From a virus, in the IMG/VR virus record IMGVR_UViG_3300020055_000186, positions 1 to 21,486 of that record: a stretch of DNA of 21,486 nucleotides; one strand, 5' to 3'. The notes beneath the pieces are model-generated. The model was not told where the DNA came from. It made no database searches and saw only the letters and a list, made by a program, of their open reading frames with translations. Within the stretch, counting starts at the first letter, position 1, and each line of letters opens with the position of its first letter. This document shows, in pieces, positions 3,295-21,486 of the stretch. A program made the translations under genes and the position numbers.

Positions 3295-4979
3295 TGGCAC
3301 AAGAAAAAGACACTACATCTGCTAGAGCGCCGACTAGTGGTAGTACTGATCCCGGTATATACATTGGTAGAATTTTAAATCCAATTGACGGTAAGCGAAT
3401 GGGCGAAATGCGTGTTCAACTGCTGAGTTCAGGTAAATCAGGTACTACTGGTGGTAGCAACGTAGAAGCAATCAATGCTATACCTTTACTACCTATTGGT
3501 GGCCAATTACCATCTAGTGGTCTTACAAAAAACGATCAATATGATTATAATCAACAAAGTTACGGTTTATGGGGCATACCTCCTGACTTTGGAGGATTTT
3601 GTATTGTGCTAGTCACTGAAGGAGGCGACGGTAAAGCATTTATCGTAGGATACTTTCAAGATGAGATGATGAATGCTAATATGTTTAATAACCTAGAAGC
3701 AGAGTACAATAAAAAAATTAGACCACCGGCAGTATACGATCCTGACACTAATGAACGTCAGTTAAACAACATGTCTCCTTTTAAAGGAAGCGGAACATAT
3801 GCTGATAGAGTAAAATTAGAAAAAGTCAATGGTTTATGGGCTGATCCTGATCGTGGACCTCAAACAAGTGGTCCTAGGAGAGATGCTATACCTATGGTAC
3901 AAGGTTGGAGTTCGCCAGGACCATACAAATATGATGGACCTAAATTAAATAGAACTCCAGAAGAGGTAGGACAAGTAATTAATGAATTACCTTTTAGTCG
4001 CCTCGGAGGTACTAATATTGTATTTGATGACGGAAATCCGGGCTTATATCGAACTACACTTGCTAAAGATGGCAAACGAGAATATGTACCAGCACCTGGC
4101 GGTGAACGTACAGTACCTCATAGTGAACAATTTAGGATAGAAACTCGTACAGGACACAAAATTATTTTACATAATAGTGAAGACTTTATTACTATTATTC
4201 ATTCTAATGGCGACAGTTGGATGGAATTTACTGCAAATGGTAAAATTGATGTTTATTCTAGAGGAGGAATAAGCATGGGTACAGAAATGGACGAAAAAGC
4301 ATCAATTAATTTTCATGCTCATCAATTCAATGTAGAAGTTAACGAGTTTAATATTAGCGCTAAAAACGAAATTAATATAGAGCAAAGACCTGATCCGGGG
4401 GCAGAACCTACTTTTGCTTTGAGAATTAAAGATGGAAAATTTGATATTCAATCAACTAAAGGGATTGATATCGAAAACAAACAAGGCGATGTAACTGGCC
4501 CTACTGACTTTAAATTACAATTTGATCAAGCTGCGGGTGCTTTTAATTTTAATCCTAATTCACAAACACAAATGAATGTAGCAGGCCAAAATTTTGCAAT
4601 AACTGGAAACATGGCCATTGGCGGCGGCTTAGAAGCAGATACTGATAATTTATTACCGATAGGAGACATACCGTCGACTCAACAAATGCAATATTCCGAG
4701 CTTCCGATGGTTAAAGATTTGCCAGAAAGCATTTCGTTGATCGATGACGAAAAAACTTCTTATGGTGACTATTCAACAATGAAATCTGTTCTTGGTCGTG
4801 TGCCAAGAAAACATCCTTGGCGACATCAAGAAAATTTAGATCCTGAACAATATAAGCCTGAAAAAATTCTGTTCGGTGGTCCTGCACCTAAAGATTCCGA
4901 ACCAGTGTACGCAAAAAGTTCTATTAGCGATACTGGTATAGCAGCCAAAAAAGTTCATGAAGAACGAGGAGGATACTAA
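3294..4979 (+). CDS. 5: Baseplate central spike protein, gp5-like, without lysozyme domain
   Basis: A 561-residue spike protein that should trimerise under the hub and puncture the cell envelope. Residues about 21-122 form the OB-fold: GIYIGRILNPIDGKRMGEMR at the start, then YGLWGIPPDFGGFCIVLVTE and AFIVGYFQDEMMN. A Pro/Gly-rich linker covers about 140-230. Residues 276-330 are gp5-type beta-helix sequence (EQFRIETRTGHKIILHNSED, then FITIIHSNGDSWMEFTANGK, then IDVYSRGGISM), and further alternating strands run to about 445. The tail is charged and Pro-rich. T4 gp5 (575 residues) has a lysozyme domain between OB-fold and helix. I see no T4-lysozyme-like sequence here; the linker is too short for one. 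Marine T4-like phages often lack it. The start overlaps the hub stop (TAATG). The neighbours, hub before and gp25 after, fit a spike. Confidence 0.88.
   Translation: MAQEKDTTSARAPTSGSTDPGIYIGRILNPIDGKRMGEMRVQLLSSGKSGTTGGSNVEAINAIPLLPIGGQLPSSGLTKNDQYDYNQQSYGLWGIPPDFGGFCIVLVTEGGDGKAFIVGYFQDEMMNANMFNNLEAEYNKKIRPPAVYDPDTNERQLNNMSPFKGSGTYADRVKLEKVNGLWADPDRGPQTSGPRRDAIPMVQGWSSPGPYKYDGPKLNRTPEEVGQVINELPFSRLGGTNIVFDDGNPGLYRTTLAKDGKREYVPAPGGERTVPHSEQFRIETRTGHKIILHNSEDFITIIHSNGDSWMEFTANGKIDVYSRGGISMGTEMDEKASINFHAHQFNVEVNEFNISAKNEINIEQRPDPGAEPTFALRIKDGKFDIQSTKGIDIENKQGDVTGPTDFKLQFDQAAGAFNFNPNSQTQMNVAGQNFAITGNMAIGGGLEADTDNLLPIGDIPSTQQMQYSELPMVKDLPESISLIDDEKTSYGDYSTMKSVLGRVPRKHPWRHQENLDPEQYKPEKILFGGPAPKDSEPVYAKSSISDTGIAAKKVHEERGGY
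4966..4972 (+). promoter_or_regulatory. Shine-Dalgarno site in the terminal Gly-Gly codons of the spike gene
   Basis: GAGGAGG lies 6 bases before the ATG at 4979. It is read as Arg-Gly-Gly codons in the ERGGY end of the spike protein, and the stop and start overlap as TAATG. Confidence 0.7.
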
Positions 4980-5479
4980 TGCCTAGATTAGAAAAAAAAT
5001 TATATAAAGAAGTTGTAGTACCTTCAACTAGTAGCTTTGATTACGGATTACCTGGAAAAACGTATGTAGGGTTTAGTACAACTGATCCTAATAGAAAAAC
5101 TGCTACAATATATGATTTAGAGTGTATAAAACAAGATATTATAAATCATTTTCATATAAGACAAGGTGAAAAATTATCAGATCCTACCTTTGGTACTATT
5201 ATATGGGACGTGCTATTTGATCCGCTAACTGATGTTTTAAAAGAAGCAATTACAAAAAACGTTACTGAAATCATAAACTTTGATCCTAGAGTGTCAGTCG
5301 ACAAAATTATAGTCGATCAGTACGAGCACGGTATACAAATAGAAGCAAATTTAACATATAAGCCTTATAATTTGACAGAATTTCTACAACTTAGATTTGA
5401 TAATAGAGCAGGATTTATTGCACCTACCACACAAAACATTGTAAGAGAGTCTATACCTAGTACTGCAAATCTAGTTTAA
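4979..5479 (+). CDS. 25: Baseplate wedge protein gp25-like (GPW/gp25 family)
   Basis: A 166-residue GPW/gp25-family protein. In T4 this protein binds the gp6 wedge core and is the site from which sheath polymerisation starts. The family core lies at about 45-165: YDLECIKQDIINHFHIRQGE, then KLSDPTFGTIIWDVLFDPLT, then a helix, then NFDPRVSV and paired strands. The family's conserved EPR motif is present as DPR (residues 102-104), a conservative change. An N-terminal extension of about 40 residues containing KTYVGFSTTDPNRKT is absent from T4 gp25 (132 residues) but is familiar from marine T4-like homologues. The start overlaps the gp5 stop (TAATG) with a strong GAGGAGG. It is the last gene of the first overlapping block; a short gap with a promoter follows. 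Confidence 0.92.
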   Translation: MPRLEKKLYKEVVVPSTSSFDYGLPGKTYVGFSTTDPNRKTATIYDLECIKQDIINHFHIRQGEKLSDPTFGTIIWDVLFDPLTDVLKEAITKNVTEIINFDPRVSVDKIIVDQYEHGIQIEANLTYKPYNLTEFLQLRFDNRAGFIAPTTQNIVRESIPSTANLV

Positions 5480-5527: not shown

Positions 5528-8500
5528 ATGTCAACAACTGACAGACAAAATAGATTGCTAGTCGCTGAGGACTGGAAACGTATCTATCAAAGTTTTAGAA
5601 ATGCTGATTTTTTGTCTTATGATTTTGATAATCTAAGACGGACAATGATAACTTATCTTAGAAAAAATTATCCAGAAGATTTTAATGATTATATTGAATC
5701 TAGCGAGTATATTGCTCTTGTTGATTTAATTGCATATTTGGGACAGGCTTTTTCATTTAGAACAGACCTTAATGCTAGAGAAAACTTTCTTGAAACTGCA
5801 GAAAGAAGAGAAAGTGTTTTAAGACTAGCTAGACTATTAAGCTATAATGCAAGTAGAAACAAAGCAGCAAATGGTCTTTTGAAATTAATTAATGTTGCAA
5901 CTACTGAAAATATTGTAGACTCAAACGGATTTAATTTAGCAGGTATACAAGTTACATGGAACGATTTAACAAATGATAATGCAAATGAACAATTTACAAA
6001 AATTTTAAATGCAGCACTTCCGGTAAATGCAGGCATTGGCAATCCAATAGCTAAAAGTACAATAAGCAAAATCTATACAGAACAATACAGATTTAACTCA
6101 AACAATAATGACTTACCTATTTTTACATTTACTAGAAATGTAAACGGCGTGAACAAAAAGTTTGAAGCGGTAAGTACTGGAATAAAAGAAAACAGTGTAA
6201 TCGAAGAAGATCCGTATCCTACTAACAAGTTTTCTATAATATATAGAGATGACGGTAAAGGGAAAGCAAGTAATAATACAGGCTTTTTTGTACATTTTAG
6301 GCAAGGAGAATTAGTTGACGGTAAGTTTAACCTAGAAAATCCTACATCTAATCAAGTTGTAGCAATCGACGAAACAAATATTAATGAAACAGATGTATGG
6401 TTATATAAGTTAGACGAGAACGACATTGAGCAAGAACTTTGGACAAAAGTAAGCTCAGTTGAAGGAAATAATGTAATCTATAATAGTATAGAAAAAGGTG
6501 TAAAAAATATTTACAGTATTTTGCCGAGAATCGAAGACAGAATTAGTTTAGTATTCGGTGACGGGGTGTTTGGAAATATTCCAAAAGGCAATTTCAAAGT
6601 TTATTATAGGATAAGTGATCCTTCTACTACACTAGTAACGCCTAATAATTTAGGTACAGTAGTTATTAGTTTTCCGTACATAAGTCACACAAATAAAGCG
6701 GAAACATTAACATTAACATTTAAATTAAGATATAATGTTGATAATGCATCTGAGGCAGAATCTAATGAAGATATAAAATCTAACGCACCAAGTAATTACT
6801 ATACACAAAATAGAATGATTACAGCTGAAGACTATCAGATTGCTCCGCTAGTACGAAACCCAGAAGTGATAAAGACTAAAAGTGTTAATAGAGTAAGTAG
6901 CGGAATAAGCAGATATTTAGATCTAATCGACAGTTCTGGAAAATATTCTAAAACAAATCTATTAGGAACCGATGGTGTAATTTACAAGCAAAACTATAGC
7001 AAAAAAAGCAATTTTAGTTTTACTACCAAAACAGATATTGAAGGTGCTATTAGTAATGTGATTTTACCTATATTAAAAGATTATAATTTACGGAATTTTT
7101 ATTACAACGAATTTCCTAGTAACAATTTATCTGGAAATAATATAACTTGGAATAGTTCTACATCTAAAACAAATCAAAATGTAGGAACATTTGTAGATAG
7201 CAGCAATGCAACGCTTTTGATAGGTGCATTTTCAACAAGTTCAACTAGGGTATTAACACCAAATTCTTTAGTAAAGTTTACAGCACCTGATGGATATCAT
7301 TTTATGAATGATAATTCATTAATGCAGGGTACAGCAAATCACATAGGCGCAAAAACATCTATTTGGACAAAGATTGTCACTGTTAATAATGATAGTACAG
7401 TAAAATTAACTGATTTCATTCCTACAGGAGCAGTTGTAGACAGGGTTATTACAAAATTAAGTTCAATAATACAAGAAGATGTTCAAACAGAAATAATAGA
7501 CCAGTGCTTTGATAAAAATACATTTGCCTTGCGATACGATGTTAATTTAATGCAATGGAAAATTGTAACACTAGATAATATAGATTTAGTATCTCCTTTT
7601 TCCATATCAAAGTCTGGAAATGAAACTAGTCAACAAGCTGATAACAGCTGGTTAGTACTTTTTGAATATACTGGCTCTAGATACGAAATTACCTACAGGT
7701 CTAGTAAGTTTGTTTTTGAAAGTCCGAATGAAATAAGATTTTTTTATGATTCGTCTGATAAAGTTTTTGATTCAACATCAGGCAAAATTGTAAAAGACAA
7801 AATTTCTGTTTTAAGTTTTAACACCAAACCAGACAGTTTAGAACAATTTACTCAAGATTATGATTGGGAAATTATAGCAAAAGTTAGAGATTCTGACGGT
7901 TATGTAGATGCTAGTAAAATAGAAATTACTTTTTTTGATAGCGACGAAGATGCAGTAGTTGATAATCCTGAACTATTTGATTTGATCGTAAATGACAGTG
8001 TTAATGAAAATAGTAAACTTATTTTTAGAAAAAAACAAGTGAATATCGACGGTAGCGAACAATATTTGTATTTTGATAATTCTCAAAGCAATATAATTGT
8101 ATTTAACGAAAAATTAAGTTTACAAACTACTACAGTGTACGATGACGGCCAAATATTTTATTTTGTAAAAGAAGATTTATTCCAAGTTCTTAATAAAGAG
8201 TCTAACACTCTTTTGACATCTAATGACTATGTTGCAAATAAAGGCAGGGATAATTTAAAGTTTTTATATGTACACGCAGCAGATGCAGACAAGAGATTAG
8301 ATCCTAGTTTGACTAACATAATAGATATTTACATGCTTACTAAAAGTTATGATACGCAATTTAGATTATATCTAGCTGATCAAGTTTTATTACCTAAGCC
8401 GCCTAGTAGTGATCAGCTATTTTTAAATTATAGTGACGAACTTAACAAAATAAAATCTATAAGTGATGAAATTGTTTATCATCCGGTAAAATATAAAATT

Positions 8501-8962
8501 TTATTTGGAAATAAAGCTGATACAAATTTGCAAGCAACTTTTAAAATTGTTAAAAATCCTGAAGCTGTTATTAATGAAAATGATTTAAAGTCTGAAACTC
8601 TTTCTGCAATTGATAGATTTTTTGCGATTGATAACTGGAACTTTGGCGATACTTTCTATTTTTCAGAACTATCTGCTTATGTAATGCAAGAACTTACTCC
8701 TAATTTAGTTACATTTGTAGTCGTTCCGTCAAATACTACCGATGTCTTTGGTAGTTTATTTGAAGTAAAAGCTGAATCAGATGAGATTTTTATAAGCGGA
8801 GCAAGAATTGCAGATATTGAAGTAATTGATGAAATTACAGCATCTAAACTAAATGCTAATGGCGTAATTTCTACGTCTACAACTACTGTAAATTCAGGTG
8901 TTCAAAGTTCTACACTAACAATTAATAACACAAGTACTAGTAGCGGAGGAAATAGTTACTAA
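5528..8962 (+). CDS. 6: Baseplate wedge subunit gp6-like, enlarged
   Basis: An 1,144-residue gp6 homologue. gp6 dimers form the continuous ring that clamps wedges together round the hub and transmits the contraction signal. The N-terminal part is nearly diagnostic: NYPEDFNDYIESSEYIALVD (about 50-69), LIAYLGQAFSFRTDLNAREN (70-89), FLETAERRESVLRLARLLSY (90-109). A baseplate-J-like core follows with LVFGDGVFGNIPKG (about 341-354) and an AEDYQIAPLV element with KTKSVNRVSSGISRYLDL (about 430-468). The C-terminal region, from about 911 to 1110, has DPSLTNIIDIYMLTKSYDTQ, YHPVKYKILFG and WNFGDTFYFSELSAYVMQEL, the part linked to gp6-gp6 contacts. T4 gp6 is 660 residues; much of the extra length lies at about 490-910. 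The last 40 residues are Ser/Thr/Asn-rich. It starts after a late-promoter-like motif and ends by overlapping the giant gene (TAATG). Confidence 0.95.
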   Translation: MSTTDRQNRLLVAEDWKRIYQSFRNADFLSYDFDNLRRTMITYLRKNYPEDFNDYIESSEYIALVDLIAYLGQAFSFRTDLNARENFLETAERRESVLRLARLLSYNASRNKAANGLLKLINVATTENIVDSNGFNLAGIQVTWNDLTNDNANEQFTKILNAALPVNAGIGNPIAKSTISKIYTEQYRFNSNNNDLPIFTFTRNVNGVNKKFEAVSTGIKENSVIEEDPYPTNKFSIIYRDDGKGKASNNTGFFVHFRQGELVDGKFNLENPTSNQVVAIDETNINETDVWLYKLDENDIEQELWTKVSSVEGNNVIYNSIEKGVKNIYSILPRIEDRISLVFGDGVFGNIPKGNFKVYYRISDPSTTLVTPNNLGTVVISFPYISHTNKAETLTLTFKLRYNVDNASEAESNEDIKSNAPSNYYTQNRMITAEDYQIAPLVRNPEVIKTKSVNRVSSGISRYLDLIDSSGKYSKTNLLGTDGVIYKQNYSKKSNFSFTTKTDIEGAISNVILPILKDYNLRNFYYNEFPSNNLSGNNITWNSSTSKTNQNVGTFVDSSNATLLIGAFSTSSTRVLTPNSLVKFTAPDGYHFMNDNSLMQGTANHIGAKTSIWTKIVTVNNDSTVKLTDFIPTGAVVDRVITKLSSIIQEDVQTEIIDQCFDKNTFALRYDVNLMQWKIVTLDNIDLVSPFSISKSGNETSQQADNSWLVLFEYTGSRYEITYRSSKFVFESPNEIRFFYDSSDKVFDSTSGKIVKDKISVLSFNTKPDSLEQFTQDYDWEIIAKVRDSDGYVDASKIEITFFDSDEDAVVDNPELFDLIVNDSVNENSKLIFRKKQVNIDGSEQYLYFDNSQSNIIVFNEKLSLQTTTVYDDGQIFYFVKEDLFQVLNKESNTLLTSNDYVANKGRDNLKFLYVHAADADKRLDPSLTNIIDIYMLTKSYDTQFRLYLADQVLLPKPPSSDQLFLNYSDELNKIKSISDEIVYHPVKYKILFGNKADTNLQATFKIVKNPEAVINENDLKSETLSAIDRFFAIDNWNFGDTFYFSELSAYVMQELTPNLVTFVVVPSNTTDVFGSLFEVKAESDEIFISGARIADIEVIDEITASKLNANGVISTSTTTVNSGVQSSTLTINNTSTSSGGNSY
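8945..8950 (+). promoter_or_regulatory. Shine-Dalgarno site for the giant gene, long spacing
   Basis: GGAGGA, formed by the Gly-Gly codons in the SSGGNSY end of gp6, lies 11 bases before the ATG at 8962. This is longer than the 5-7 base spacing at the other junctions, which may lower initiation and favour coupling to gp6 translation. Confidence 0.6.
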
Positions 8963-11900
8963 TGGCGTACGACAATTCACAAAATGAACCTATTTTACCT
9001 AATAAAAATTTAAATAATAGCCGTAAAAGCGCAAATCATTTACCTAAGATTTTTAGAACTCCTAGTAATAATAAATTCCTCTCGGCTACTTTAGACCAAA
9101 TGATACAACCTGGGGTAATTGATAAAATTAATGGGTTTGTTGGGAGAAAAACTGCTAAGGCTTATAATGCAGCAGATGTTTATATTTCTGATGTTAATAC
9201 GCAACGACAAAATTATCAATTAGAACCAGCTAGTGTAATAAAAGATGACTTAGACAACGTTACATTATATCGTGATTACAACGATTATATGAATGTGTTA
9301 GCAAATTCTAATAAAGCAGTAAAAAATGATAGCATAGTTAACGAGCAAGAGTTCTACGCATGGAATCCTCATATAGATTGGGATAAATTTACAAATTTTA
9401 GGGAATATTATTGGTTACCAACAGGTCCACAAGCTATTTCAATTTTTGGCAATAGTAAAGAAGTAGAAAGCACATATACGGTTCGTCTATCCGATAACTT
9501 AGATTCGTACAGTTATATTTTCACTCCGGATGGTAGTACACCTAATCCTACTTTAACTTTATACAGAGGTGTAAAGTATAAATTTGATGTCGATGTGCCT
9601 AATTTTCCTATTACTTTTAGAACAAAACTTACTGATTCTAGTGAATTTGATCTAGATAGTTCTACCATTCTTTTGTATGACGGAGTTGATATACAAGGGC
9701 TAGAAACCGGCAACGTTACTTTAGAACTTAGTACGTCTGCTCCTGACAGTTTATGGTATGTATCAGCTACAGATATAAATGTTCATGGTAAAATAATTGT
9801 AAAAGATATACAAGACAGTGCTTTTATAGATGTAGAAAAAGAGATTATAGGAAAAAAGACTTATAAATCTGGAAATGGCGTTACATTTAGTAATGGAATG
9901 AAAATAAATTTTGCTGCTGAAGTTGAGCCTGCATTTTATAAAAATAGAAATTTTTACGTAGAGGGTGTAGGCGATAAAATTCAACTTATAGAAGAAGCTT
10001 TGCTCAATGTATCTACTAGTTTTACAGAAGAAATTGTAGATAATTTTGATATTCAAAATTTTGATAATTTGCCGTTTAGTACAGCATTAGGTTATGCAGG
10101 ACAAAAAGATTATATAGTAATTAACAGAAGTGCAAAAGACGGAAACTTGTGGTCAAAGTATAACAAATGGTTCCATAAAAGTGTAATTGAGCAAAGTGCA
10201 CAATACAATAATCTTCCTATAGTAATAGATGAAACAGCTAAAGCTAATAGACCTATTATTGAATTTGAAAGCGGTTTAAAGTTATATAACTTTGGCTCTC
10301 AAGAAAAACAAGCTGTTGATTTACTTGACGATATTACAACTGATGTTTTTTCTACTATTGAAGGTAGCATAGGTTATAATATAGACGGAGTAGATGTTGC
10401 AGACGGACAAAGAATACTTTTTACAAATGACAAAGATAGTTTAGTAAAAAATAGAATTTTCAAAGTTAAGTTTATAACATACGATGGCACTATAGCTGAT
10501 GATGCAAATGTAAGCGGCCGTAGACAAATTACTTTACAAGAAGAAGACGACAGTGTTTCAAAAAATAATGAAACAGTTTTAGTAAAGCAAGGCAGTAAAC
10601 ACGGAGGCACAGTATTTCATTTCAAAAATAATAGCTGGGCACTAGGACAAAGTAAGGACAAAGTAAACCAAAGTCCATTATTTGATATGTTTGACGAAAA
10701 TGAATATAGTTTTTCTGATGTAACTATCTATCCGTCTAATACATTTACTGGTACGAAAATTTTTAGTTATAAAAGAGGCACCGGCACAAACGATGTTGAA
10801 TTAGGATTTCCGCTAACTTATCGAAATATTAATAATGTTGGAGATATTGTGTTTACCTCCGACATTAGTAATGACACTTTTTCCTATTCTGATAATGAAG
10901 ATGTTATTACATTATCCATATCTGATGGATATTTACATAGATACAATTCATTGGATACTTATGTACATGAGACTAATTGGAAAAAAGTAGATTCGAGTGA
11001 ACAATTTGTTATACAACAAAAAGTATTTGACAGTACTTTTATTAATATTTTAATAGATGAATACAATAATAGCTGGGATTTTGTAGACGAAATGGAAATT
11101 ATTGTTTACAAAAATAATCAGTTATTAATTAAAGATAAAGATTTTACATTATCGCAACATTCCACTAACCATATACAAATTAATTTTACATCTGCCTTGA
11201 AAGAAAATGACATCATTTTAACCAAGACAAAATCTAGTGCAGAAAAAAACAGTAAGGGATATTTTGAATTTCCTTATGCCTTAGAACGTAACCCACAAAA
11301 TGAAAATCTTATAGATTGCACATTAGGTGAAATAAACGATCATGTGCAAACAATTACTGAAAATACAGCAGATTTTATTGGCGCATTTCCGGGCACAAGT
11401 AACTTGCGGGACTTAGGCGGGTTAAGCCAAAATGGCAGACGCTTCTTGCAACATAGTGCACCTACTAACCTTTCACTATTCCATTTTACAGAAAAAGAAT
11501 ATAGTGTAGTTAAAAGTATTGAATATGCAAAAAATGAATACTACATGTTCAAAAAACAATTTTTATCTATTGCTGAAAATTTAGGTTTTTCTGGACCTGT
11601 AGACATACATGTGACTAAGATTTTACAAGAAATAAACAAAAGCAAAAAAGAAACAGATTCATTTTATTTTAGTGATATGGTTCCTCAGAGTGCTTATGTT
11701 AAAACTGATCATGATGTCGAAGATTCTGACGAAATTTATTTCCCACTTAGCTCAAGTTTTAGTTTAACTGATCCTAGTTATAAAGCAGTTTTAATTTATA
11801 AAAATAACGAACAATTAATTCATGGCAAAGACTACACTTTCAATACAGAAGGGTATGCAGTAGTAACAACTACTAAACAACCATTAGATATAATAACCAT

Positions 11901-14900
11901 ATATGAATACGAAAATACATTTGGAAATTACATACCGCCAACACCGACTAAATTAGGATTATATCCAGCATTTGAGCCAATGATGTACGAGGATACTACT
12001 TTTTTAGAAACTCAAACAGTAATTCAAGGGCATGATGGAAGTATTATTTTAGCGTTTGGCGATTATAGAGATAATCTAATTTTAGAATTAGAAAAAAGAA
12101 TTTTTAACAATTTAAAAGTAAAATACGATCCTTCATTATTTAATATGGATAGTGTGCGTCCTAGTTACTATAATAAAAATAGTCTTGCGTTTAACGAAGT
12201 TAATAAATCGTTATTAGCAGATTTTGTACATTGGGCAGCCAATACTTCGTATGATTACACAAAGCAAGATTTTATAAGAGATAATAGATTTACTTATAAT
12301 TATAGCTCTAGTTTCAACGACCAAAATGTATCATTGCCGGGCTTTTGGAGGGAAATTTACAAGTATTATTATAATACAGATAGACCACATACTCATCCAT
12401 GGGAAATACTTGGCGAAACAATAGAACCAATTTGGTGGCGAGATACCTACGGCGAAGCTCCCTACACAAAAGATAATTTTTTAATGTGGGAAGATATTGA
12501 AAATGGTGTATTACGTCAGCCTAACCAAAGAGTAATATTTAAAAAAGAGTTTATTAGAAAAGGCTTAACTAAAATTTTGCCAGTCGACGAGCACGGGGGG
12601 TTAGTATCACCATTAGAAATAGGCCTAGTGTCAAAATACAATTCAGAGTTCATAGAACAGCCGTGGATTTTTGGTGACGGCGGGCCAGTTGAAGCAGCAT
12701 GGAGACGATCGAGCAACTTCGTTTTTGCTTTATTAAAGGCGCTAGTTTTAAATAAGCCAAGTAAAGCATTTGGGACAGGATTTGATAGGGTTAACCAAGT
12801 TAGAAATAAAGCAGGTAATATTATTTACAAGCCTTCTAATAAACGTATTGAATTGCAAGACATTATATTCCCAACATCAGTTGATGAAAACCAAACACAG
12901 TATACAAGTGGTTTGGTAAACTTAATTGGTGAATTTGTAAAATCAAATGTAGATCAATCGTATAATGATTACAAGAATAAGGTTAAATCTATAAAAAATC
13001 AGTTAGGTTTTAAACTAGCTGGGTTTACAGATAAGACCAAATTAAAATTAATTTTAGATAGCCGGACACCTCTTAACAAAGGAAATGTTTTTGTACCTGA
13101 TGAAAACTATCAAATATTTGTTAATGAGAGTTCTCCTATTGAGTTACTTAATTACAGCGGCATAATTATCGAACGCAGGCAAGAAGGTTTTTTAATTAAG
13201 GGATATAGTAACCAAAAAGGATATTTTAATACTCATCCTATTTTACAAAAAAGTAAAACTATAGATATAAATGTAGGAGGCATAAGCGAAAGTTTCCTAG
13301 AATGGAATAGTAACAATTTCTACACCAAAGGTGTGATTGTAAGATATAATTCTTCTTATTATAGATGTACGGTTGATCATAAAGAAGAAGATTTTCTAAA
13401 TACTAATTTTGTTAAATTGCCTAATTTGCCTGTAATCGGTGGAAGAAACGTACAAATACCAACAGTGTTTAACACAAATAATGTAGTAGAAGTGCCATAT
13501 GGCACTCTTTACTATACAATTCAAGAAGTAGTAGACTTTATTGCTTCCCATGCATCTTATTTGAAAAATAAGGGTTTTGTTTTTGATTACTTTGACGATA
13601 GTGTTGGTAAAATTTTAGATTGGAATCATTCAATTCAAGAATTTGTATTTTGGACTTTATACGAGTTAGACGAAGGATCAGCTATTGCTCTTAGCCCAAG
13701 TTCAAACTTATTACAATTTGTAAGTGAAAAAAGTGTAGTATCTAATGTACTTGACGGACCTAATGATTACACATTGTTAAACGCTACTGGCAACATACAA
13801 GATTTTGATAACGTCTTTGTTCAAAGATACAACAATGATTTTTCGATGTACTTGTCTGATGAAAATGGTGCAGGAATATATTATATTGAACTACCAATGA
13901 CACAAACTGAACATGTTGTGTTATTAGATAACAGTACTGTGTTTAATGATATAATTTATGATACAGTGCCTGGATATAGGCAAGAAAGATTACAAATTCT
14001 AGGTTATAGAACTGATAATTGGTCAGGAAATATAAACATACCTGGTTTTATATACAATGATTCAACAGCAAAAAATTGGGAAGAGTACCAAAATTATATA
14101 GTGGGTGATTTAGTAAAATATAAACAGTACTATTATATTGCAAAAGATAATGTAGAGGGATCAAATTTATTTAATGAGTCTGACTGGGTAAGTATAGGCG
14201 ATAAACCTAGACAAGGCCTTTTACCTAATTTTGAGTATAAAAGTAATCAGTTTACTGATTTTTATGATTTAGATAGTGATAATTTAGATACCGAACAACA
14301 AAAATTTGCACAACATTTAATCGGTTATCAAAAACGAGATTATCTAGAAAATATTATCAATAATAGTGTAAGCCAGTATAAGTTTTACCAAGGAATGATA
14401 TTAGAAAAAGGCACAAAAAATTCCTTAAATAAATTATTTAATGTGCTTTCTAGTAACGATAAAGATAGCTTAGAATTTTATGAAGAATGGGCAATTAGAA
14501 ACGGCCAATATGGTGGTACTAATATTGTAGAAGAGTTTGAATTTAATTTAGATGAATCACAATTTATAGTGAATCCGCAGCCTATACTTTTAAGTTCAAC
14601 AAATAGCAGTAATGATACTGAAGTTGTTTATAGAGTTAAGCCATTTGATATTTCAGTTAAGCCTACTAATTATAATAATCTACCGTTTCCGTCTAAAGAA
14701 ATCACAAACATATATACAAATGATGTTGGATATGTTCATAAAGCAGACGTAATTAAAACCTTATCAAATTTAAATGAGCTAGTTGCAACTAAAACTAGTG
14801 AAATTAATCAAGGAAATTTTGTTTGGGTAGGCGATTATAATGATAGCTGGAGTGTATTGCAACACATAAATGCTAATTTAACTTTACAAAAAATTTCTAA

Positions 14901-17900
14901 TAACACCTTAATTTTTTCCGAAATAGTAAGTAATATTAGTCAAGGTGATATTATTGGAATAGATAATGTATATTTTACATCAGTTAACGAAAATGTAGTG
15001 TTAGCTGATTCTACGAAATATTTAGAATCTAATACTTTACTATCTAATTTTGCTTATTTCTTAAAAGTTAGTAGTGTTGATAAAAACAAAATTACTTTAG
15101 AAATTCCAACAATACTTCAAGATAGTTTTAACACAGACTATGATGTTGATAATGCAACTATTACAAGATTCGAACCGTTTAGGTTTACTACTGTAGATAA
15201 CGCAAATAAAGCGTTACAAAAATATTATGAGCCAGCAACAAAACTATGGATAGACAACATAGTAGATAACAAATGGAAAGTTTTAGAAAATACAAATAGC
15301 TATTCGCTTGTTGAAAATTTAAAAGGACCGACCGATCACGAATATTCTAAATCATTTGGTAGTGTAATATCTAGTAATGTTGCTAATAATGTAATGGTTG
15401 TTGGTGATTATCTTAACGAAAACGGTAAAGTTTTTGTTTATCGTCGTCAAAATTCTAAAAAAGGATGGTATCTTTCACAAACAATTGAGCCTTCGAACTA
15501 TGCTGATCCTAATCAAGAGTTCGGTAAAACAGTAAGTGTTAGTGATGATGCGAAATGGTTAATAATAGGGTCGCCTGCTGCATCTAATGTAAAATCAAAT
15601 TACAAAGGTGATTTTTCGGTAGATACTGCTTATAACGCAGATGACATAGTGTTTTATAGCGAAAGATTGTGGAAAGCAAAATTTGATTTACTTTCAAGTT
15701 CGGCGGGTGTAAATTTCAATACGTTTGACAGTGTAGTACAAAATGTATTTGATTTGAATGAAGAAAATACACAATCAGATAAAAATGACATAATTTATGT
15801 AGGAAATTATTCAATACCGTTTGGCACAACTGTAACTCCGTTTGAACAACCAGTTGATCATATATTAGTAAGAGCGCCTGCGGCTCTATACAATAATACT
15901 TTGTCAGATACTGAAAATTGGCAAGTAAAGTTGCAGTGGAACTTGCTAACTTTAGGCAATCAAGATCAAAATACATTAGTAGAAGTACAACCGTTTAATA
16001 ATCAATATGCAGCCAGTGTTTCTAATACATCGCTAACAGGAATAAAAGACATAGAAAGTAGTATTGATATTGTTCTATTCTTTGATACTTTACCTGTTGT
16101 ACCGTCAGTGGGCGAAACAATTCAAACGAGCACAGGCACAGGAGTTGTTGATTATGTTTACGGTAACGAAGATGCAAAATATGTTATGTATATTACAAAC
16201 GTTACTGGTAGTTTTAACACAACCGACTCTGCTTTTAGAGCTTCGGGCGAATTCATAGGTGACTTTGAAAAACAGTTAGACACCGACGGCACTGTATATG
16301 GTGGTTTTTGGAAAATTTCTACTACTTCGTTCACGCCAACTTATGCCAGCGGATTATCAGATAGCGGTCGAGGACTAGTTTTTGTAGATATGTCAAAAAC
16401 AAATGATTTTACAAATGTATATTATAATATTTTTGATACAAATACAACTGTAATTGATAGTGAAAATAATAAAAACAGTTACATTAGACCGTTGAGTAAT
16501 GTTGGGTTCCCAAATGTAAACGGAGTCAATGGTGAAATTTTAAGTACTAGATACGTAATTAGAGCACCTAAATTACTAACTGATACTCTAAGCAACGATG
16601 ATACTATAAACTTATTTGTTAATGAATTACCAAACTATAACAATGGCGTAGAAAATCCATTATCGTCAATAAATTTATCACCAGATGAAGTAAACGGGCT
16701 AATAACTGTAGATGATTTATGGGATGGATATATTCAATTATCTTTTACTAAGTTTCAAACTAATGGTACTCCTTATGAACCAAAAATAGGACAGACTATT
16801 AGAGATATGAGAACCGGTGCAACCGCTAGAGTTGAATATTATCAAAGAGATAATCTTGATGCAACATTATTTGTATCTAATGTTACAGGAAATTGGAGCA
16901 AGGGTGAAGATTATAATGATCTTTCTGAAATTGAATTTTTAGGAAATCCAAGTGATCCGTTAGGTGTATATCAAATTGACCGAGAAATGGGCGATATACA
17001 GTTTATTTCTTTAGGTTCGAGCACAATAGGTAAGTTAATTGTAGTTGATACCCAAAGCGACATAGAACTAGTAGAATCAGCAACTAGTTTTTCTAGATTA
17101 GAAAATGCAGAATATTATTTTTATACTGCAAGAGAAGTAAGCGGTGAACCAATTTCTTTAAGTGCTCCTAGTATTTTAAATGCAAACTGGGCACAAACTT
17201 TTAGTATACCTGCAGACGAAAACGGTACTTCTAGTGCATACACTAATCAAGGAATGTATTCTTTATATATGCTTAACGGTAGTCTTTATGCAGAATACGG
17301 ATCATATGTGACTTCGGATTCTACAAATAATTACTATTTAGGATCCGATGTAAAAATAAGGCAACAAGGTGATAATTATAAAGGTTATATTCATGCTGCG
17401 GGTAACGCTACAACAGCAATACCAGGCAAGTTACATTTTATAAACAAAGGCACCTACCAAAATATACAGTATGACTGGGAATATAGTAAAAACAAAAAAT
17501 ACAAAGGCCCATTTGACGAAACTTTAACTTATGAAAAAGATGACATTGTAGTAGTTACAAGCACAGCAAGAGATCAACTTTATAAAGCAAAAATCAACAT
17601 AGCAGGCGGAACTCCGTTTGCTGCAAGCAGCTGGGAATTACAAGAAGACTATATAGATTATGTAGGTTACATTCCTAATACTACTAACATATCGGTAATA
17701 AACGATTCAACAGAGTATTCGGGATCATTAGAAAGTGACAATATGATTGCATTTGCTAATGAATTTGATATATCAAAAGATGGTGACGTAATAGTTGTTA
17801 AAGTTAATTACAATAATGAATCAAAGATATTAGTTTATAGAAATGTCCAAGAAAATTATCAACTAGGACAAACAATCGTTGTAGGCGACGAGTCTAGTGT

Positions 17901-20900
17901 TACTAAAGAATGGGTAGTGAGTATTAGTAATGATGGCATGTATATTGCTGTAGGAAAATCATTAGAGGATACTTACCAATACGACGAAGGACAGGTATTT
18001 ATATACCAACAAAAAAATGGTATTTTTGAATTAGTACAAGTTTTAGAAAATGCAAATAAAAGTAACAGCGAAATGTTTGGTTATGTTGTAAACTTTGATG
18101 ATAACAAGTTAGTAGTCAGTGCCCGTAATGCAAGTGCTGAAGTTCCTACTAGCTTTGACTCTGGATTAACAAGTTTTGATGCAGGATTTACAAACTTTAA
18201 TTATACTAACGAATTCCAAGGTATAGTTTACATATACGAAAAAATTAAAGATAGATTTTTGCTTGGGCAAAAACTATTTGTAAAAGATCCCGATGTTAGA
18301 CAATTTGGAAAACATTTACATTTAAAAAATAACAATATCTACGTCGGACTTCCGATAAAGCCTGAAAATTCTACTTCTACACATATAGGTGAAATATACA
18401 ATTTCAAGTTGCTAAATGTTAATGAACCTATGTGGTCAGAAAAGAGAAGCATACAAGCAGCAGTAGATTTAGAAAAAATCAAAGAAATATATCTTTATAA
18501 CACAAAAACAGGCAAAAAATTAGCAAACTTAGATTACATTGATATAAATCAAGGTAAGATAGCAGGTGTTGTTGATCAAGAAATTAGTTATAAAACTTTT
18601 GATGATCCGGCAGTATATTCAAGTAGTATAGAAAATGTAACTGTAGACAAAAATAATGCCTGGGGAGATGCCAATGTAGGAAAAGTATGGTGGGATCTTA
18701 CAAATGCTAATTTCTTCAATGCATATCAAAAAGATATAATCTACAGTGCACAAACATGGAATATGCCTTTTGTAGAAAATTCAATAGATGTATATGAATG
18801 GACAGAGAGCATTTTTACTCCAGAAAAGTATAATCAACTTTCTCTAGCTCAAAATGCAGACACCGTGAGATATGATATAAGCGGTGAGGCAAAAACATCT
18901 TACAATACGCTAAAAGTTTATGACTATGTTAGTAAAACTTTTACTACAAAATATTATTTTTGGGTAAAAAATAAAACTTCAATTCCTGTGTCGTCTGATA
19001 GACAATTTACAGTTAAAACAATTAGTGAATATATATTAAATCCTGTAAGTAGCGGTGTTGAATTTGTTTCATTATTGTCAAGTGATAGATTCGTTCTTAA
19101 CAATGTTGAAAAATATCTTTCCGGCACAGATGTAGCATTGAATATTCAGTACTATAAACAAGATAGTAAAATTTCTAATATACATACCCAGTATGAAATA
19201 CTTTCTGAGAATTTAGGCACAAGCCAGCCATCCGACGACATAATAGAAAAATGGTTTGATAGCTTAGTGGGATATGATAATAATTTACTTCCAGTGCCTG
19301 ATGATAATCTGCCGGTAAAGTACAAATACGGTAATTTATCAACTCCGAGACAAAGTTGGTTTATTAATAGATTCGAAGCAAATAAACAACTTATAGAAAG
19401 AGTAAACTTTGTTTTAAAAGATAACATAATTGTTGAAAATAAAAATTTAACACCTTTACTTGCTTCAGATAGTATTGAAGATGTAAATATAAATTCCTAT
19501 GATTTGATAGTAGACGACTTGTTAGATTTGGAAGAAATACAAACAGAAAAATTAAAACCTGCAATATTGCATCCTACAGTTGTTAATGGAAAAATTACCG
19601 ATGTTACAATTGTTGATTATGGCAGAGGTTATAAAAAAGTTCCAGATGTTGAAATTTACGGCAAAGGAATAGACGCTAGCATTGAATTACAAATCGATTC
19701 CCTAGGTAGAGTAGTGTCTGCTAAAGTAATTAATCAGGGAAAAAACTTCACAGATAATACAATCTTAAAAGTACGTAATTTTAGTGTGTTAGTTAAAAAT
19801 GATACAACTTTAAATTCTAAATGGGCTATTTATGAAAGAAACATTACTTCTAATTCATGGGTGCGAACAGTAAAACAAAAGTTCGATACTACGCTTTATT
19901 GGGATTATGTAAATTGGTATGAAAGTGGATACAACGATAATTCAAAAATAGATCATGTGGTTGCAATAAGTGCCGACTTGTACAATACTAATATAGACAT
20001 AGGTCAAACTGTAAAAATTACAAATATCGGTTCCGGCGGCTGGCTATTATTGAAACGAATTAGTAATACGAATAGCTTAGATTATACAGTTGATTATCAA
20101 ACTATTGGTAGAGAAAACGGCACAATACAACTTAGCGACAAGCTATATTTACCACCATCGTTTGGCTACGATAGTAATAGCTTTGATGTTAAATTCTATG
20201 ATTTCTTACCAGTGTACGAATTAAGAAATATTTTGAATGCAATTAGATACAATTTATTTGTTGATGATTTACTAATAGAATTTAATAGATTATTTTTTGC
20301 TAGTATAAGGTATGTGTTAAGCGAGCAAATGAATGTAGATTGGTTGTTCAAAACAAGTTTTGTAAAAGCTAAACATAATGTAGGCGCACTAAGAAAAGAC
20401 ATCACGTTCAATAACGACAATTTAGCAGACTATGAACAGTACTTAAATGAAGTTAAACCCTTTAAGTCTAAAATTAGAGAATATTCAAGTTCTTACGAAA
20501 ATTTAGAGCCTACAAATAGTTTTGTAACTGATTTTGATTTAACTCAAGTTTATGATGCAACTGAGGGTAAATTAATTCATCCAAGTAATAAAATAAAAAA
20601 TAATCAAGTTGATATTTTACAAGACCTAATAGAATCTTATCCTAACAAACATTGGTATGATAACATAGGTTACTCAGTTGTTAAGATTAATATTACTGAT
20701 AATGGCAGTAAGTACAGAACACCACCTACTGTCAAAGTCATTGGCGGAGGCGGCACAGGAGCTGAAGTTAAAACATATATTGGATCTAATGGCAAGCTAA
20801 TCAAATGTGAAGTTATTAATGAGGGCTTCGGCTATACAAGTACACCTACATTAGAAATTAGTCATAATTTAGAAGATGGCGGTAAGCCAGCTATACTAAG

Positions 20901-21486
20901 TGTAGAACTAGGAAATGGGTTACATAGGTCAGTTTTAACGGGAATAAAGTTTGATAGAACAGCAGCAAGATTTACTATTACTGAAATAAATGCAGAAGAA
21001 AATTTTGTAGCGTCGGGCAGTAATTACGAATATAATTTACAATGGCCAATGGTATTATCTAACGATAAAGTTGAAGTGTATGCAGGTACTAGAAAGCTAC
21101 TTAGAAGTGAATATCAATATTCTAATGTTAAGGACAATACTAAAACATTTGATCGTAGTTTAGGAAAAATTACCACTACAGAAGCATTACCTAAAAATAC
21201 ACAAATTAAAATTATATATAAAAAATCATTAGAATTACTTAATGCAGCAGATAGGGTAAATGCATACTATACACCAGCTACTGGTAGTTTAGGTAAAGAT
21301 TTGGCTCAGTTAATGACTGGAGTAGATTATGGCGGCGTAGCAGTCAAAGGTACTGGTTTTGAGCAGATTCAAGGCTGGGATAATGATCCGTGGTACACAT
21401 CTGAATGGGATGCATATGTTAATACAAACGACGATGAAGTTTTTGAGTTTGATCAATCTACAGTAGAAATACAACTATCAAAACCA
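8962..21486 (+). CDS. Giant modular baseplate/tail structural protein, at gp7 position (3' partial)
   Basis: One open frame of at least 4,175 codons, read through by eye without a stop, still open at the window edge. The start ATG overlaps the gp6 stop (TAATG). It follows gp6, where T4 has the wedge protein gp7 (1,032 residues), so a wedge or peripheral baseplate role is the best inference. Order of parts: N-terminal domain with NHLPKIFRT and YAWNPHIDWDKFTNFREYYW (about 29-155); cupredoxin-like module (about 182-286); conserved body with NLWSKYNKWFHKSVIE (about 396-411), NLRDLGGLSQNGRRFLQHSA (about 815-834), VIQGHDGSI (about 1020) and DTDRPHTHPWEILG-like sequence (about 1140); CBM5/12-like segments (about 1448, 1706, 2221, 2851); propeller-like blades (about 2129-2209 and 2929-3150) split by duplicated units; two GxGY modules (about 3546-3607, 3907-3969); and YVLSEQMNVDWLFKTSFVKA (about 3783-3802). 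I saw only three cysteines. No signal peptide or membrane span. Similar sequences are known as virion structural proteins in marine T4-like phages; the exact role is not established here. Confidence 0.9.
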   Translation, partial: MAYDNSQNEPILPNKNLNNSRKSANHLPKIFRTPSNNKFLSATLDQMIQPGVIDKINGFVGRKTAKAYNAADVYISDVNTQRQNYQLEPASVIKDDLDNVTLYRDYNDYMNVLANSNKAVKNDSIVNEQEFYAWNPHIDWDKFTNFREYYWLPTGPQAISIFGNSKEVESTYTVRLSDNLDSYSYIFTPDGSTPNPTLTLYRGVKYKFDVDVPNFPITFRTKLTDSSEFDLDSSTILLYDGVDIQGLETGNVTLELSTSAPDSLWYVSATDINVHGKIIVKDIQDSAFIDVEKEIIGKKTYKSGNGVTFSNGMKINFAAEVEPAFYKNRNFYVEGVGDKIQLIEEALLNVSTSFTEEIVDNFDIQNFDNLPFSTALGYAGQKDYIVINRSAKDGNLWSKYNKWFHKSVIEQSAQYNNLPIVIDETAKANRPIIEFESGLKLYNFGSQEKQAVDLLDDITTDVFSTIEGSIGYNIDGVDVADGQRILFTNDKDSLVKNRIFKVKFITYDGTIADDANVSGRRQITLQEEDDSVSKNNETVLVKQGSKHGGTVFHFKNNSWALGQSKDKVNQSPLFDMFDENEYSFSDVTIYPSNTFTGTKIFSYKRGTGTNDVELGFPLTYRNINNVGDIVFTSDISNDTFSYSDNEDVITLSISDGYLHRYNSLDTYVHETNWKKVDSSEQFVIQQKVFDSTFINILIDEYNNSWDFVDEMEIIVYKNNQLLIKDKDFTLSQHSTNHIQINFTSALKENDIILTKTKSSAEKNSKGYFEFPYALERNPQNENLIDCTLGEINDHVQTITENTADFIGAFPGTSNLRDLGGLSQNGRRFLQHSAPTNLSLFHFTEKEYSVVKSIEYAKNEYYMFKKQFLSIAENLGFSGPVDIHVTKILQEINKSKKETDSFYFSDMVPQSAYVKTDHDVEDSDEIYFPLSSSFSLTDPSYKAVLIYKNNEQLIHGKDYTFNTEGYAVVTTTKQPLDIITIYEYENTFGNYIPPTPTKLGLYPAFEPMMYEDTTFLETQTVIQGHDGSIILAFGDYRDNLILELEKRIFNNLKVKYDPSLFNMDSVRPSYYNKNSLAFNEVNKSLLADFVHWAANTSYDYTKQDFIRDNRFTYNYSSSFNDQNVSLPGFWREIYKYYYNTDRPHTHPWEILGETIEPIWWRDTYGEAPYTKDNFLMWEDIENGVLRQPNQRVIFKKEFIRKGLTKILPVDEHGGLVSPLEIGLVSKYNSEFIEQPWIFGDGGPVEAAWRRSSNFVFALLKALVLNKPSKAFGTGFDRVNQVRNKAGNIIYKPSNKRIELQDIIFPTSVDENQTQYTSGLVNLIGEFVKSNVDQSYNDYKNKVKSIKNQLGFKLAGFTDKTKLKLILDSRTPLNKGNVFVPDENYQIFVNESSPIELLNYSGIIIERRQEGFLIKGYSNQKGYFNTHPILQKSKTIDINVGGISESFLEWNSNNFYTKGVIVRYNSSYYRCTVDHKEEDFLNTNFVKLPNLPVIGGRNVQIPTVFNTNNVVEVPYGTLYYTIQEVVDFIASHASYLKNKGFVFDYFDDSVGKILDWNHSIQEFVFWTLYELDEGSAIALSPSSNLLQFVSEKSVVSNVLDGPNDYTLLNATGNIQDFDNVFVQRYNNDFSMYLSDENGAGIYYIELPMTQTEHVVLLDNSTVFNDIIYDTVPGYRQERLQILGYRTDNWSGNINIPGFIYNDSTAKNWEEYQNYIVGDLVKYKQYYYIAKDNVEGSNLFNESDWVSIGDKPRQGLLPNFEYKSNQFTDFYDLDSDNLDTEQQKFAQHLIGYQKRDYLENIINNSVSQYKFYQGMILEKGTKNSLNKLFNVLSSNDKDSLEFYEEWAIRNGQYGGTNIVEEFEFNLDESQFIVNPQPILLSSTNSSNDTEVVYRVKPFDISVKPTNYNNLPFPSKEITNIYTNDVGYVHKADVIKTLSNLNELVATKTSEINQGNFVWVGDYNDSWSVLQHINANLTLQKISNNTLIFSEIVSNISQGDIIGIDNVYFTSVNENVVLADSTKYLESNTLLSNFAYFLKVSSVDKNKITLEIPTILQDSFNTDYDVDNATITRFEPFRFTTVDNANKALQKYYEPATKLWIDNIVDNKWKVLENTNSYSLVENLKGPTDHEYSKSFGSVISSNVANNVMVVGDYLNENGKVFVYRRQNSKKGWYLSQTIEPSNYADPNQEFGKTVSVSDDAKWLIIGSPAASNVKSNYKGDFSVDTAYNADDIVFYSERLWKAKFDLLSSSAGVNFNTFDSVVQNVFDLNEENTQSDKNDIIYVGNYSIPFGTTVTPFEQPVDHILVRAPAALYNNTLSDTENWQVKLQWNLLTLGNQDQNTLVEVQPFNNQYAASVSNTSLTGIKDIESSIDIVLFFDTLPVVPSVGETIQTSTGTGVVDYVYGNEDAKYVMYITNVTGSFNTTDSAFRASGEFIGDFEKQLDTDGTVYGGFWKISTTSFTPTYASGLSDSGRGLVFVDMSKTNDFTNVYYNIFDTNTTVIDSENNKNSYIRPLSNVGFPNVNGVNGEILSTRYVIRAPKLLTDTLSNDDTINLFVNELPNYNNGVENPLSSINLSPDEVNGLITVDDLWDGYIQLSFTKFQTNGTPYEPKIGQTIRDMRTGATARVEYYQRDNLDATLFVSNVTGNWSKGEDYNDLSEIEFLGNPSDPLGVYQIDREMGDIQFISLGSSTIGKLIVVDTQSDIELVESATSFSRLENAEYYFYTAREVSGEPISLSAPSILNANWAQTFSIPADENGTSSAYTNQGMYSLYMLNGSLYAEYGSYVTSDSTNNYYLGSDVKIRQQGDNYKGYIHAAGNATTAIPGKLHFINKGTYQNIQYDWEYSKNKKYKGPFDETLTYEKDDIVVVTSTARDQLYKAKINIAGGTPFAASSWELQEDYIDYVGYIPNTTNISVINDSTEYSGSLESDNMIAFANEFDISKDGDVIVVKVNYNNESKILVYRNVQENYQLGQTIVVGDESSVTKEWVVSISNDGMYIAVGKSLEDTYQYDEGQVFIYQQKNGIFELVQVLENANKSNSEMFGYVVNFDDNKLVVSARNASAEVPTSFDSGLTSFDAGFTNFNYTNEFQGIVYIYEKIKDRFLLGQKLFVKDPDVRQFGKHLHLKNNNIYVGLPIKPENSTSTHIGEIYNFKLLNVNEPMWSEKRSIQAAVDLEKIKEIYLYNTKTGKKLANLDYIDINQGKIAGVVDQEISYKTFDDPAVYSSSIENVTVDKNNAWGDANVGKVWWDLTNANFFNAYQKDIIYSAQTWNMPFVENSIDVYEWTESIFTPEKYNQLSLAQNADTVRYDISGEAKTSYNTLKVYDYVSKTFTTKYYFWVKNKTSIPVSSDRQFTVKTISEYILNPVSSGVEFVSLLSSDRFVLNNVEKYLSGTDVALNIQYYKQDSKISNIHTQYEILSENLGTSQPSDDIIEKWFDSLVGYDNNLLPVPDDNLPVKYKYGNLSTPRQSWFINRFEANKQLIERVNFVLKDNIIVENKNLTPLLASDSIEDVNINSYDLIVDDLLDLEEIQTEKLKPAILHPTVVNGKITDVTIVDYGRGYKKVPDVEIYGKGIDASIELQIDSLGRVVSAKVINQGKNFTDNTILKVRNFSVLVKNDTTLNSKWAIYERNITSNSWVRTVKQKFDTTLYWDYVNWYESGYNDNSKIDHVVAISADLYNTNIDIGQTVKITNIGSGGWLLLKRISNTNSLDYTVDYQTIGRENGTIQLSDKLYLPPSFGYDSNSFDVKFYDFLPVYELRNILNAIRYNLFVDDLLIEFNRLFFASIRYVLSEQMNVDWLFKTSFVKAKHNVGALRKDITFNNDNLADYEQYLNEVKPFKSKIREYSSSYENLEPTNSFVTDFDLTQVYDATEGKLIHPSNKIKNNQVDILQDLIESYPNKHWYDNIGYSVVKINITDNGSKYRTPPTVKVIGGGGTGAEVKTYIGSNGKLIKCEVINEGFGYTSTPTLEISHNLEDGGKPAILSVELGNGLHRSVLTGIKFDRTAARFTITEINAEENFVASGSNYEYNLQWPMVLSNDKVEVYAGTRKLLRSEYQYSNVKDNTKTFDRSLGKITTTEALPKNTQIKIIYKKSLELLNAADRVNAYYTPATGSLGKDLAQLMTGVDYGGVAVKGTGFEQIQGWDNDPWYTSEWDAYVNTNDDEVFEFDQSTVEIQLSKP
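9505..9816 (+). other. Cupredoxin-like beta-sandwich module in the giant protein
   Basis: Residues about 182-286 read as a beta-sandwich: YSYIFTPDGSTPNPTLTLYR, then GVKYKFDVDVPNFPITFRT, later APDSLWYVSATDINVHGKI. The order of 'NPTLTLYRG-x-x-Y-x-F' strand, P-rich strand and late 'APDxLxYVS' strand resembles cupredoxin-like domains of phage structural proteins. The usual copper-binding His and Cys are absent, so a purely structural role is likely. Confidence 0.5.
11089..11226 (+). repeat. YKNN beta module, copy 1 of 3 in the giant protein
   Basis: Residues about 710-755: EIIVYKNNQLLIKDKDFTLS, then a short strand and LKENDIILTK. The same layout, a 'hydrophobic-YKN-x-x-x-L-x-x-x-x-DY/DF-T' strand followed by a 'L-x-x-N/D-x-I' strand, recurs at 11776-11910 and 21052-21225. 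It is a small beta module seen in many phage fibres and baseplate proteins. Confidence 0.5.
11776..11910 (+). repeat. YKNN beta module, copy 2 of 3 in the giant protein
   Basis: Residues about 939-983: YKAVLIYKNNEQLIHGKDYT, then VVTTTKQPLDIITIYEYE. It aligns with the copy at 11089-11226 about 690 bases upstream, sharing YKNN, the KD-aromatic-T turn and the closing hydrophobic strand. Confidence 0.5.
13303..13430 (+). repeat. CBM5/12-like module 1 in the giant protein
   Basis: Residues about 1448-1490 read WNSNNFYTKGVIVRYNSSYY then a short tail. This resembles the W/Y-x(4)-Y-x(2)-G-x-x-V-x-Y-x-x-x-Y-Y/W-x-A/C pattern of chitin-binding CBM5/12 folds. Glycan binding is an inference. Confidence 0.4.
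14077..14208 (+). repeat. CBM5/12-like module 2 in the giant protein
   Basis: Residues about 1706-1749 begin WEEYQNYIVGDLVKYKQYYY, then IAKD and, after a loop, ESDWVSIG. This is the clearest of four such modules: aromatic, Y-x-x-GD-x-V-x-Y, paired aromatics, A, and a terminal W. Confidence 0.5.
15346..15588 (+). repeat. Beta-propeller-like (FG-GAP type) blades, first group
   Basis: Residues about 2129-2209 contain two blade-like units: SKSFGSVISSNVANNVMVVG followed by GKVFVYRR, and EFGKTVSVSDDAKWLIIGSP. The pattern FGxxVxxSxDxxWLxxGxP with a 'G-x-V/I-F/Y-V/I-Y' strand is the FG-GAP/propeller signature. The remaining blades lie about 2.2 kb downstream at 17746-18411. Confidence 0.55.
15862..16440 (+). 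repeat. Divergent duplicated unit A inside the propeller insertion
   Basis: Residues from about 2301 start ILVRAPAALYNNTLSDTENW. Further in come PSVGETIQ (at 16105) and a strand ending YITNVTGSF (at 16189). The order and spacing of these landmarks match unit B at 16549-17060: RAP to P-x-x-G is 78 codons here and 74 in B, and P-x-x-G to NVTG is 31 here and 32 in B. Confidence 0.5.
16549..17060 (+). repeat. Divergent duplicated unit B inside the propeller insertion
   Basis: Residues from about 2530 start RYVIRAPKLLTDTLSNDD. PKIGQTIRDMRTGATARVEY follows (at 16783), then LFVSNVTGNWSKGED (around 16870). It shares RAP-x-L, P-x-I/V-G-x-TI, the G-x-V-x-Y turn and NVTG-aromatic with unit A, at similar spacing. 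Confidence 0.5.
17746..18411 (+). repeat. Beta-propeller-like (FG-GAP type) blades, second group
   Basis: Residues about 2929-3150 hold about four blade-like units. They are EFDISKDGDVIVVKV with ILVYRN; EWVVSISNDGMYIAVGKS with GQVFIYQQ; MFGYVVNFDDNKLVVSARN with GIVYIYEK; and QFGKHLHLKNNNIYVGLP with GEIYNFK. With the two at 15346-15588 the total would be about six, in the usual range for one propeller. Another phage-typical segment (GKIAGVVDQEISYKTFDDPA) follows soon after. Confidence 0.6.
19597..19782 (+). repeat. GxGY module 1 in the giant protein
   Basis: Residues about 3546-3607: VTIVDYGRGYKKVPDVEIYG, then GRVVSAKVINQGKNFTDN. This beta-rich unit (VxxxGxGYxxxPxVxxxGxG ... GxVxxxxVxxxGxxFT/YT) recurs at 20680-20868 and is common in marine phage structural proteins. 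Confidence 0.55.
20680..20868 (+). repeat. GxGY module 2 in the giant protein
   Basis: Residues about 3907-3969: NGSKYRTPPTVKVIGGGGTG, then GKLIKCEVINEGFGYTSTPT. It is a fuller version of the module at 19597-19782, with the GGGGTGA turn intact, and contains one of the few cysteines of the protein. Confidence 0.6.
21052..21225 (+). repeat. YKNN-type beta module, copy 3 of 3 in the giant protein
   Basis: Residues about 4031-4088: DKVEVYAGTRKLLRSEYQYS, then GKITTTEALPKNTQIKIIYK. It has the strand-turn-strand layout of the copies near 11.1 and 11.8 kb but with YAGT in place of YKNN, so it is a more distant copy. Confidence 0.4.

Follow-up and report, generated by a model that had tools for sequence, protein, structure and literature searches.

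A giant gene directly behind gp6 in an uncultured relative of the T4-type jumbo phages

Directly behind gp6, this virus carries an open reading frame (P0001, 8962..21486, + strand) of 4,175 codons, still open at the edge of the window, which is the whole stretch of 21,486 nucleotides that was analysed. T4 gp7 (1,032 aa) holds the same gene position but is about five times shorter, gives no significant profile match and was not among the fold matches listed. The locus raises the question of whether so long a frame is a real gene and what its product might do in the baseplate.

The open frame and its surroundings

Five genes upstream of the giant could be identified.

706..1026, + strand: T4 gp53-type wedge protein (PF11246, E 6.3e-5; phrog_7145, E 1.7e-27)
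1027..3294, + strand: virion structural protein of 755 aa, hub-type by position (phrog_11190, E 1.3e-19)
3294..4979, + strand: gp5-type hub/spike protein of 561 aa (phrog_13211, E 1.4e-12)
4979..5479, + strand: T4 gp25-type wedge protein / sheath initiator (PF04965, E 2.9e-9)
5528..8962, + strand: T4 gp6-type baseplate wedge protein of 1,144 aa (phrog_10646, E 8.6e-285; phrog_219, E 2.7e-21)

The resulting order, 53-hub-5-25-6-giant, is T4-like, and the gp6 stop overlaps the start of the giant by one base. A gp6 homologue was found directly upstream of the giant in 92 of the 93 testable loci, mostly with a one-base overlap, and the position right behind gp6 that was claimed by a sequence-only reading thus holds in the window and among its relatives. 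In SCTP-2 (L004, 5636-14926) the gene preceding the giant encodes 3,096 aa without a tblastn match to gp6, gp25 lies ~76 kb from the giant's cluster and the baseplate cluster is rearranged.

From composition ~357 stops were expected in the frame, and the same reading's claim that none interrupts it from the ATG at 8962 to the edge proved correct; the other two forward frames contain 371 and 645. At the three codon positions GC is 0.412/0.321/0.205, lowest at the third, which matches coding sequence. Two further IMG/VR contigs of this virus (99.84% and 99.85% DNA identity), named after two other sample numbers, cover residues 1-3165 (L008, the longer) and 1-1576 of the giant and confirm nearly all of 1-3165. 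The giant differs from that of the longer copy by 20 substitutions, 13 of them synonymous, a pattern that fits selection on the protein. A single 1-base deletion in L008 (L008:19160), opposite window base 18122 and 334 bases from the end of its own contig, is probably an assembly error in that copy, since relatives align in frame across this base. In the neighbouring 755-aa structural protein a Ser/Gly run (window 1199-1204) differs by 6 bases, in frame, from L009.

The virus record itself stops at 21,486, so the 3' end of the giant lies beyond the contig and its stop codon cannot be read; rightward extension was sought, and both same-virus contigs stop earlier. Complete relatives end 391-1,384 aa past this point (median 820), and the nearest of them (L015, 60% identity, 5,001 aa) ends 792 residues past it, from which the intact giant should have ~4,970 aa and a mass of ~560 kDa, with its stop ~2.4 kb past the window. 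The unbroken gene of 4,175 codons is confirmed as real and conserved at the protein level, and it makes up most of a protein of ~5,000 residues.

Giants in jumbo phages and cyanophages

The giant matches phrog_10938 (E=0, 1047.7 bits) with a profile match of >1,000 residues, and by this measure is a member of a large existing family of T4-related jumbo phages. Isolates in the family include Atu_ph07 (gp180, 4,449 aa), PA5oct (gp355, 3,857 aa) and RaK2 (ORF070w, 3,326 aa), with further members in Phosso (294), SCTP-2 (gp140), 121Q (582), XaC1 and others; their matches to the window protein have 25-29% identity. The isolates and the most distant IMG/VR members show 24-31% identity to the window giant and can be aligned with it over blocks 20-150, 290-1990, 3150-3500 and 3640-3870, but differ in the content of residues 2000-3150 and in the C-terminus. 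Their giants also lie directly behind gp6 (SCTP-2 excepted) and are virion proteins in isolates. No near-identical DNA to that of this virus was found among cultured phages. PHROGs places phrog_10938 in the category 'head and packaging', with no function, although gene position and motif indicate the baseplate wedge.

A profile scan of IMG/VR revealed at least 579 stretches encoding the family, 80 of which were fetched. The giant is a single ORF above 3,300 aa directly behind gp6, and the 59 complete relatives range from 3,326 to 6,436 aa with a median of 4,907. Given these lengths, and the giants found at the same place in cyanophages, the size is ordinary for the jumbo-phage lineage and is a lineage trait. 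The exceptional size that had been ascribed to the protein was right in its figure of >450 kDa, the part within the window alone having a mass of 474.7 kDa, but was overstated for a family of such lengths. The longest relative (L074:5640-24950) has 6,436 codons in one frame and a mass of ~699 kDa. A literature search on the largest phage proteins gave no relevant match.

Cyanophage proteins named gp7 or 'baseplate wedge initiator' reach 5,195 aa in P-SSM2, 4,878 aa in Sf-CH5 and 4,225 aa in ACG-2014f. Like the window giant they are ORFs directly behind gp6 with GxGY repeats and a beta-module, and the FYxSKG motif of their core has a putative counterpart in it, but their core is at the N-terminus (~residue 200) rather than at ~1,800, a separate gp8 follows them and there was no tblastn match between a cyanophage giant and the window giant. 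In cyanophage P-TIM40 (L114:5995-21882; KP211958.1 65082-87137) an ORF of 7,351 residues, annotated only as a putative structural protein, lies directly behind gp6; together with the P-SSM2 'gp7' it bears out the earlier remark that long ORFs are known here from marine T4-like phages. In Synechococcus phage DSL-LC02 (L113:9001-20847) the protein at the gp7 position is split into two adjacent genes of 2,514 and 1,432 aa.

Anatomy of the giant and its relation to gp7

Conservation is high at residues 50-150, 400-650, 760-900, 1000-1990, 3150-3500 and 3640-3870, and low at 2000-3150. The following features could be placed along the chain.

9004..9441, + strand: conserved N-terminal domain, residues 15-160 (conservation profile; consensus LPxxxQT...GYIGR...YQLEP motifs)
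11011..11238, + strand: beta-module repeat copy 1, residues 684-759 (HMM, E 3.7e-11)
11704..11916, + strand: beta-module repeat copy 2, residues 915-985 (HMM, E 3.9e-15)
13291..13443, + strand: CBM5/12 (chitin-binding type 3) fold, residues 1444-1494 (PF02839, E 9.7e-4)
14065..14217, + strand: second CBM5/12-like module, residues 1702-1752 (HMM, E 6.1e-8)
14254..14631, + strand: gp7-core-like region, residues 1765-1890 (motif FYQGMILEKGTKNSLNKLFNVL at 14383-14448)
15355..15606, + strand: FG-GAP (beta-propeller type) repeats, first half, residues 2132-2215 (PF14312, E 5e-5)
15607..17673, + strand: low-conservation insert between the FG-GAP halves, residues 2216-2904 (conservation profile)
17674..18411, + strand: FG-GAP-like repeats, second half, residues 2905-3150 (weak, E 0.02 plus FG..D patterns)
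18409..19461, + strand: second family-wide conserved block, residues 3150-3500 (conservation profile)
19570..19776, + strand: GxGY...PPxVxI repeat, residues 3537-3605 (family-derived HMM, E 6.1e-28; Dpo31 tailspike match, E 2.5e-4)
19879..20571, + strand: third family-wide conserved block, residues 3640-3870 (conservation profile)
20668..20862, + strand: second copy of the GxGY repeat, residues 3903-3967 (HMM, E 9.9e-14)
20995..21228, + strand: beta-module copy 3, residues 4012-4089 (HMM)

Beta-modules, CBM5/12, FG-GAP and GxGY repeats are thus combined in one chain, as the sequence-only reading had supposed in proposing several kinds of module. The beta-module has a unit of ~70 residues, and the C-terminal part of L015, beyond the window, holds six more candidates (four strong, two weak). 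For the CBM5/12 at residues 1444-1494 the Pfam, solved-structure and Foldseek results agree; the best PF02839 E-value among relatives was 1.4e-7 and Foldseek matched chitin-binding domains with a probability of 0.98-1.00. Residues 2905-3150 are probably FG-GAP repeats and may, going by their patterns, belong to a propeller.

Structure predictions covered residues 985-2060 (pLDDT 82) and 3150-4175 (pLDDT 81). The first model strongly matched the predicted models of relatives, while of solved structures only chitin-binding modules were among the matches listed; the second weakly matched phage tailspike/fibre-adaptor and tail-complex proteins. Its match to T4 gp6 (5iv5_A) was discarded (probability 0.47, TM-scores <0.1). 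The core helices were modelled at low confidence (pLDDT ~46-66); solved gp7 chains exist, and no gp7 was among the 50 Foldseek matches listed for residues 985-2060.

Like T4 gp7, the giant sits between gp6 and the peripheral baseplate and fibre genes, the downstream side being visible only in relatives. The T4 gp7 profile phrog_964 matched neither the window protein, at E<=5, nor anything in the giant-bearing jumbo genomes searched. When the whole family profile was compared with T4 gp7 and cyanophage gp7 by hhalign, the alignments were scattered, degenerate or of low probability; the one exception, a block that matched cyanophage gp7, falls on the GxGY repeats common to both. The N-terminal LP...GYIGR domain was ruled out as the gp7 core (E 0.15-0.5 against both profiles).

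The motif FYxSKGxxxSxxxLFxxL is common to T4-type, cyanophage and pelagiphage gp7 (T4 residue 734, P-SSM2 residue 206), and the core motif of T4 gp7, FYSTKGIEASYKFLFKVL at 734, has a putative counterpart in FYQGMILEKGTKNSLNKLFNVL at residue 1808 of the giant. For 9 of 10 gp7 proteins the best match of an HMM of residues 1765-1890 fell on this motif, and in a sliding scan of 65 blocks 63 of the 64 others reached two gp7 proteins or fewer and one, overlapping, block reached four. In the reverse search, with a gp7-core HMM, 47 of 79 giants were matched at the motif. Individual matches were non-significant (E 0.017-1.3; hhalign probability <=7%), the motif was picked by eye before the 65-block control and the gp7 sequences tested are mutually related, so that the evidence for a core is good but not conclusive. 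From their location, residues 1765-1890 would correspond weakly to the gp7 core, a placement that is new here. The gp7 correspondence suggested earlier accordingly stands as to position and a motif-level signal, but gains no support from profile or fold matches.

The giant is probably the gp7-position wedge protein in the baseplate of a T4-related jumbo phage, a lineage-specific chain of ~5,000 residues. It might instead merely occupy the gene position of gp7, the wedge-core partner of gp6 being a different, unrecognised protein. This would explain why no single comparison of profile or fold with T4 gp7 was significant and why two large conserved blocks (985-1700 and 3150-3870) have no solved relative, but is unlikely in view of a motif concordance unique among 65 blocks and of gp6 lying next to the giant in 92 of the 93 loci.

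Virions, fibre genes and the wedge periphery

Published proteomics has shown that giants occur in virions, in relatives only. The 381.88 kDa gp245 of phAPEC6, directly behind its own wedge gene, yielded 17 virion peptides (PMC7247149) and CBB_236, which adjoins the wedge gene CBB_237, yielded 21 (PMC5259590); both were placed in the family by gene order and mass. The record of PA5oct gp355 is flagged 'ESI-MS/MS'. Peptide coverage of the relatives' giants was 7.6-7.7% (PMC7247149, PMC5259590) and, being below 8%, leaves the intactness of the chain in virions unproven. Such low coverage would suit post-translational cleavage of the chain into several virion proteins, which is nevertheless highly improbable, as the frame is intact in all 59 complete relatives and no sign of cleavage was found.

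The sequence-only reading had further proposed that the giant replaces gp8, gp10 and fibre-attachment parts. Marginal matches aside, no gene for gp8 (phrog_977) or gp11 (phrog_963) was found in nine contigs that carry a giant and in eight jumbo genomes that are complete or nearly so, while gp25 was detected in all 20 records searched; virus contigs may be fragments, so absence from them is weak evidence. Within the giants phrog_977 gave one marginal match to the gp8 N-terminus (L060 record, 83461-83685, + strand, E 5e-4), which falls within the last residues of that giant, near its C-terminus. Matches of phrog_438 were ruled out as evidence for gp8, as in giants they involve only model positions ~173-301, which are the GxGY repeats, and phrog_958 had no match within the family's giant. 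Apart from these repeats and the L060 match no gp8 domain was found in the giant, so that gp8 may have disappeared, been replaced or changed too far to be recognised. In L021 the giant is followed downstream by a 204-aa protein (phrog_11259), a collar protein of 790 aa that weakly matches Gp10_C, two more proteins of fibre type and one of 304 aa, and in PA5oct a separate gene, gp358, matches the gp10 C-terminus. Since the collar and fibre-type genes are separate, the fibre genes are not merged into the giant, and the proposed replacement is supported neither on this point nor by the profile searches for gp8. That a single chain absorbed the functions of gp7, gp8, gp10 and fibre attachment is accordingly improbable, even with its many beta-modules, the undetected gp8 and gp11 genes and the L060 match in its favour.

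T4 gp7 is a wedge monomer with six copies in the baseplate; its domains hold gp8, gp9 and gp10 (PMC3004832), and its XM1 counterpart, gp17, anchors spikes (PMC10457771). For the giant as a gp7-position wedge protein we infer orthology to gp7, a role in the core bundle, copy number, docking of the fibres and binding of sugars. Its most likely role is that of T4 gp7 with far larger arms. As in T4, the short helical core (residues 1765-1890) would associate with a pair of gp6 chains at the core of the wedge, and there would be one giant per wedge and six per virion. The flanks, ~1,750 residues before the core and ~3,000 after it, could form a peripheral platform or rim holding separately encoded fibres, with the beta-modules stiffening the platform and the CBM-like modules facing the cell, where they may touch surface or cell-wall sugars. 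It is conceivable, though rather unlikely, that a gp7-type core has grown in both directions into a single-chain wedge periphery of ~5,000 residues that does the structural work of gp7, gp8 and gp11 and leaves only the trimeric fibres separate.

The family had been sequenced before and detected in virions, and the giant itself extends it by one uncultured member. The location of the putative gp7 core is more widely useful, as synteny and motif together put phrog_10938 in the baseplate wedge. If this is confirmed, the lineage would have baseplates with wedges based on chains of 370-700 kDa, and the core would give a precise site to look for in cryo-EM maps.
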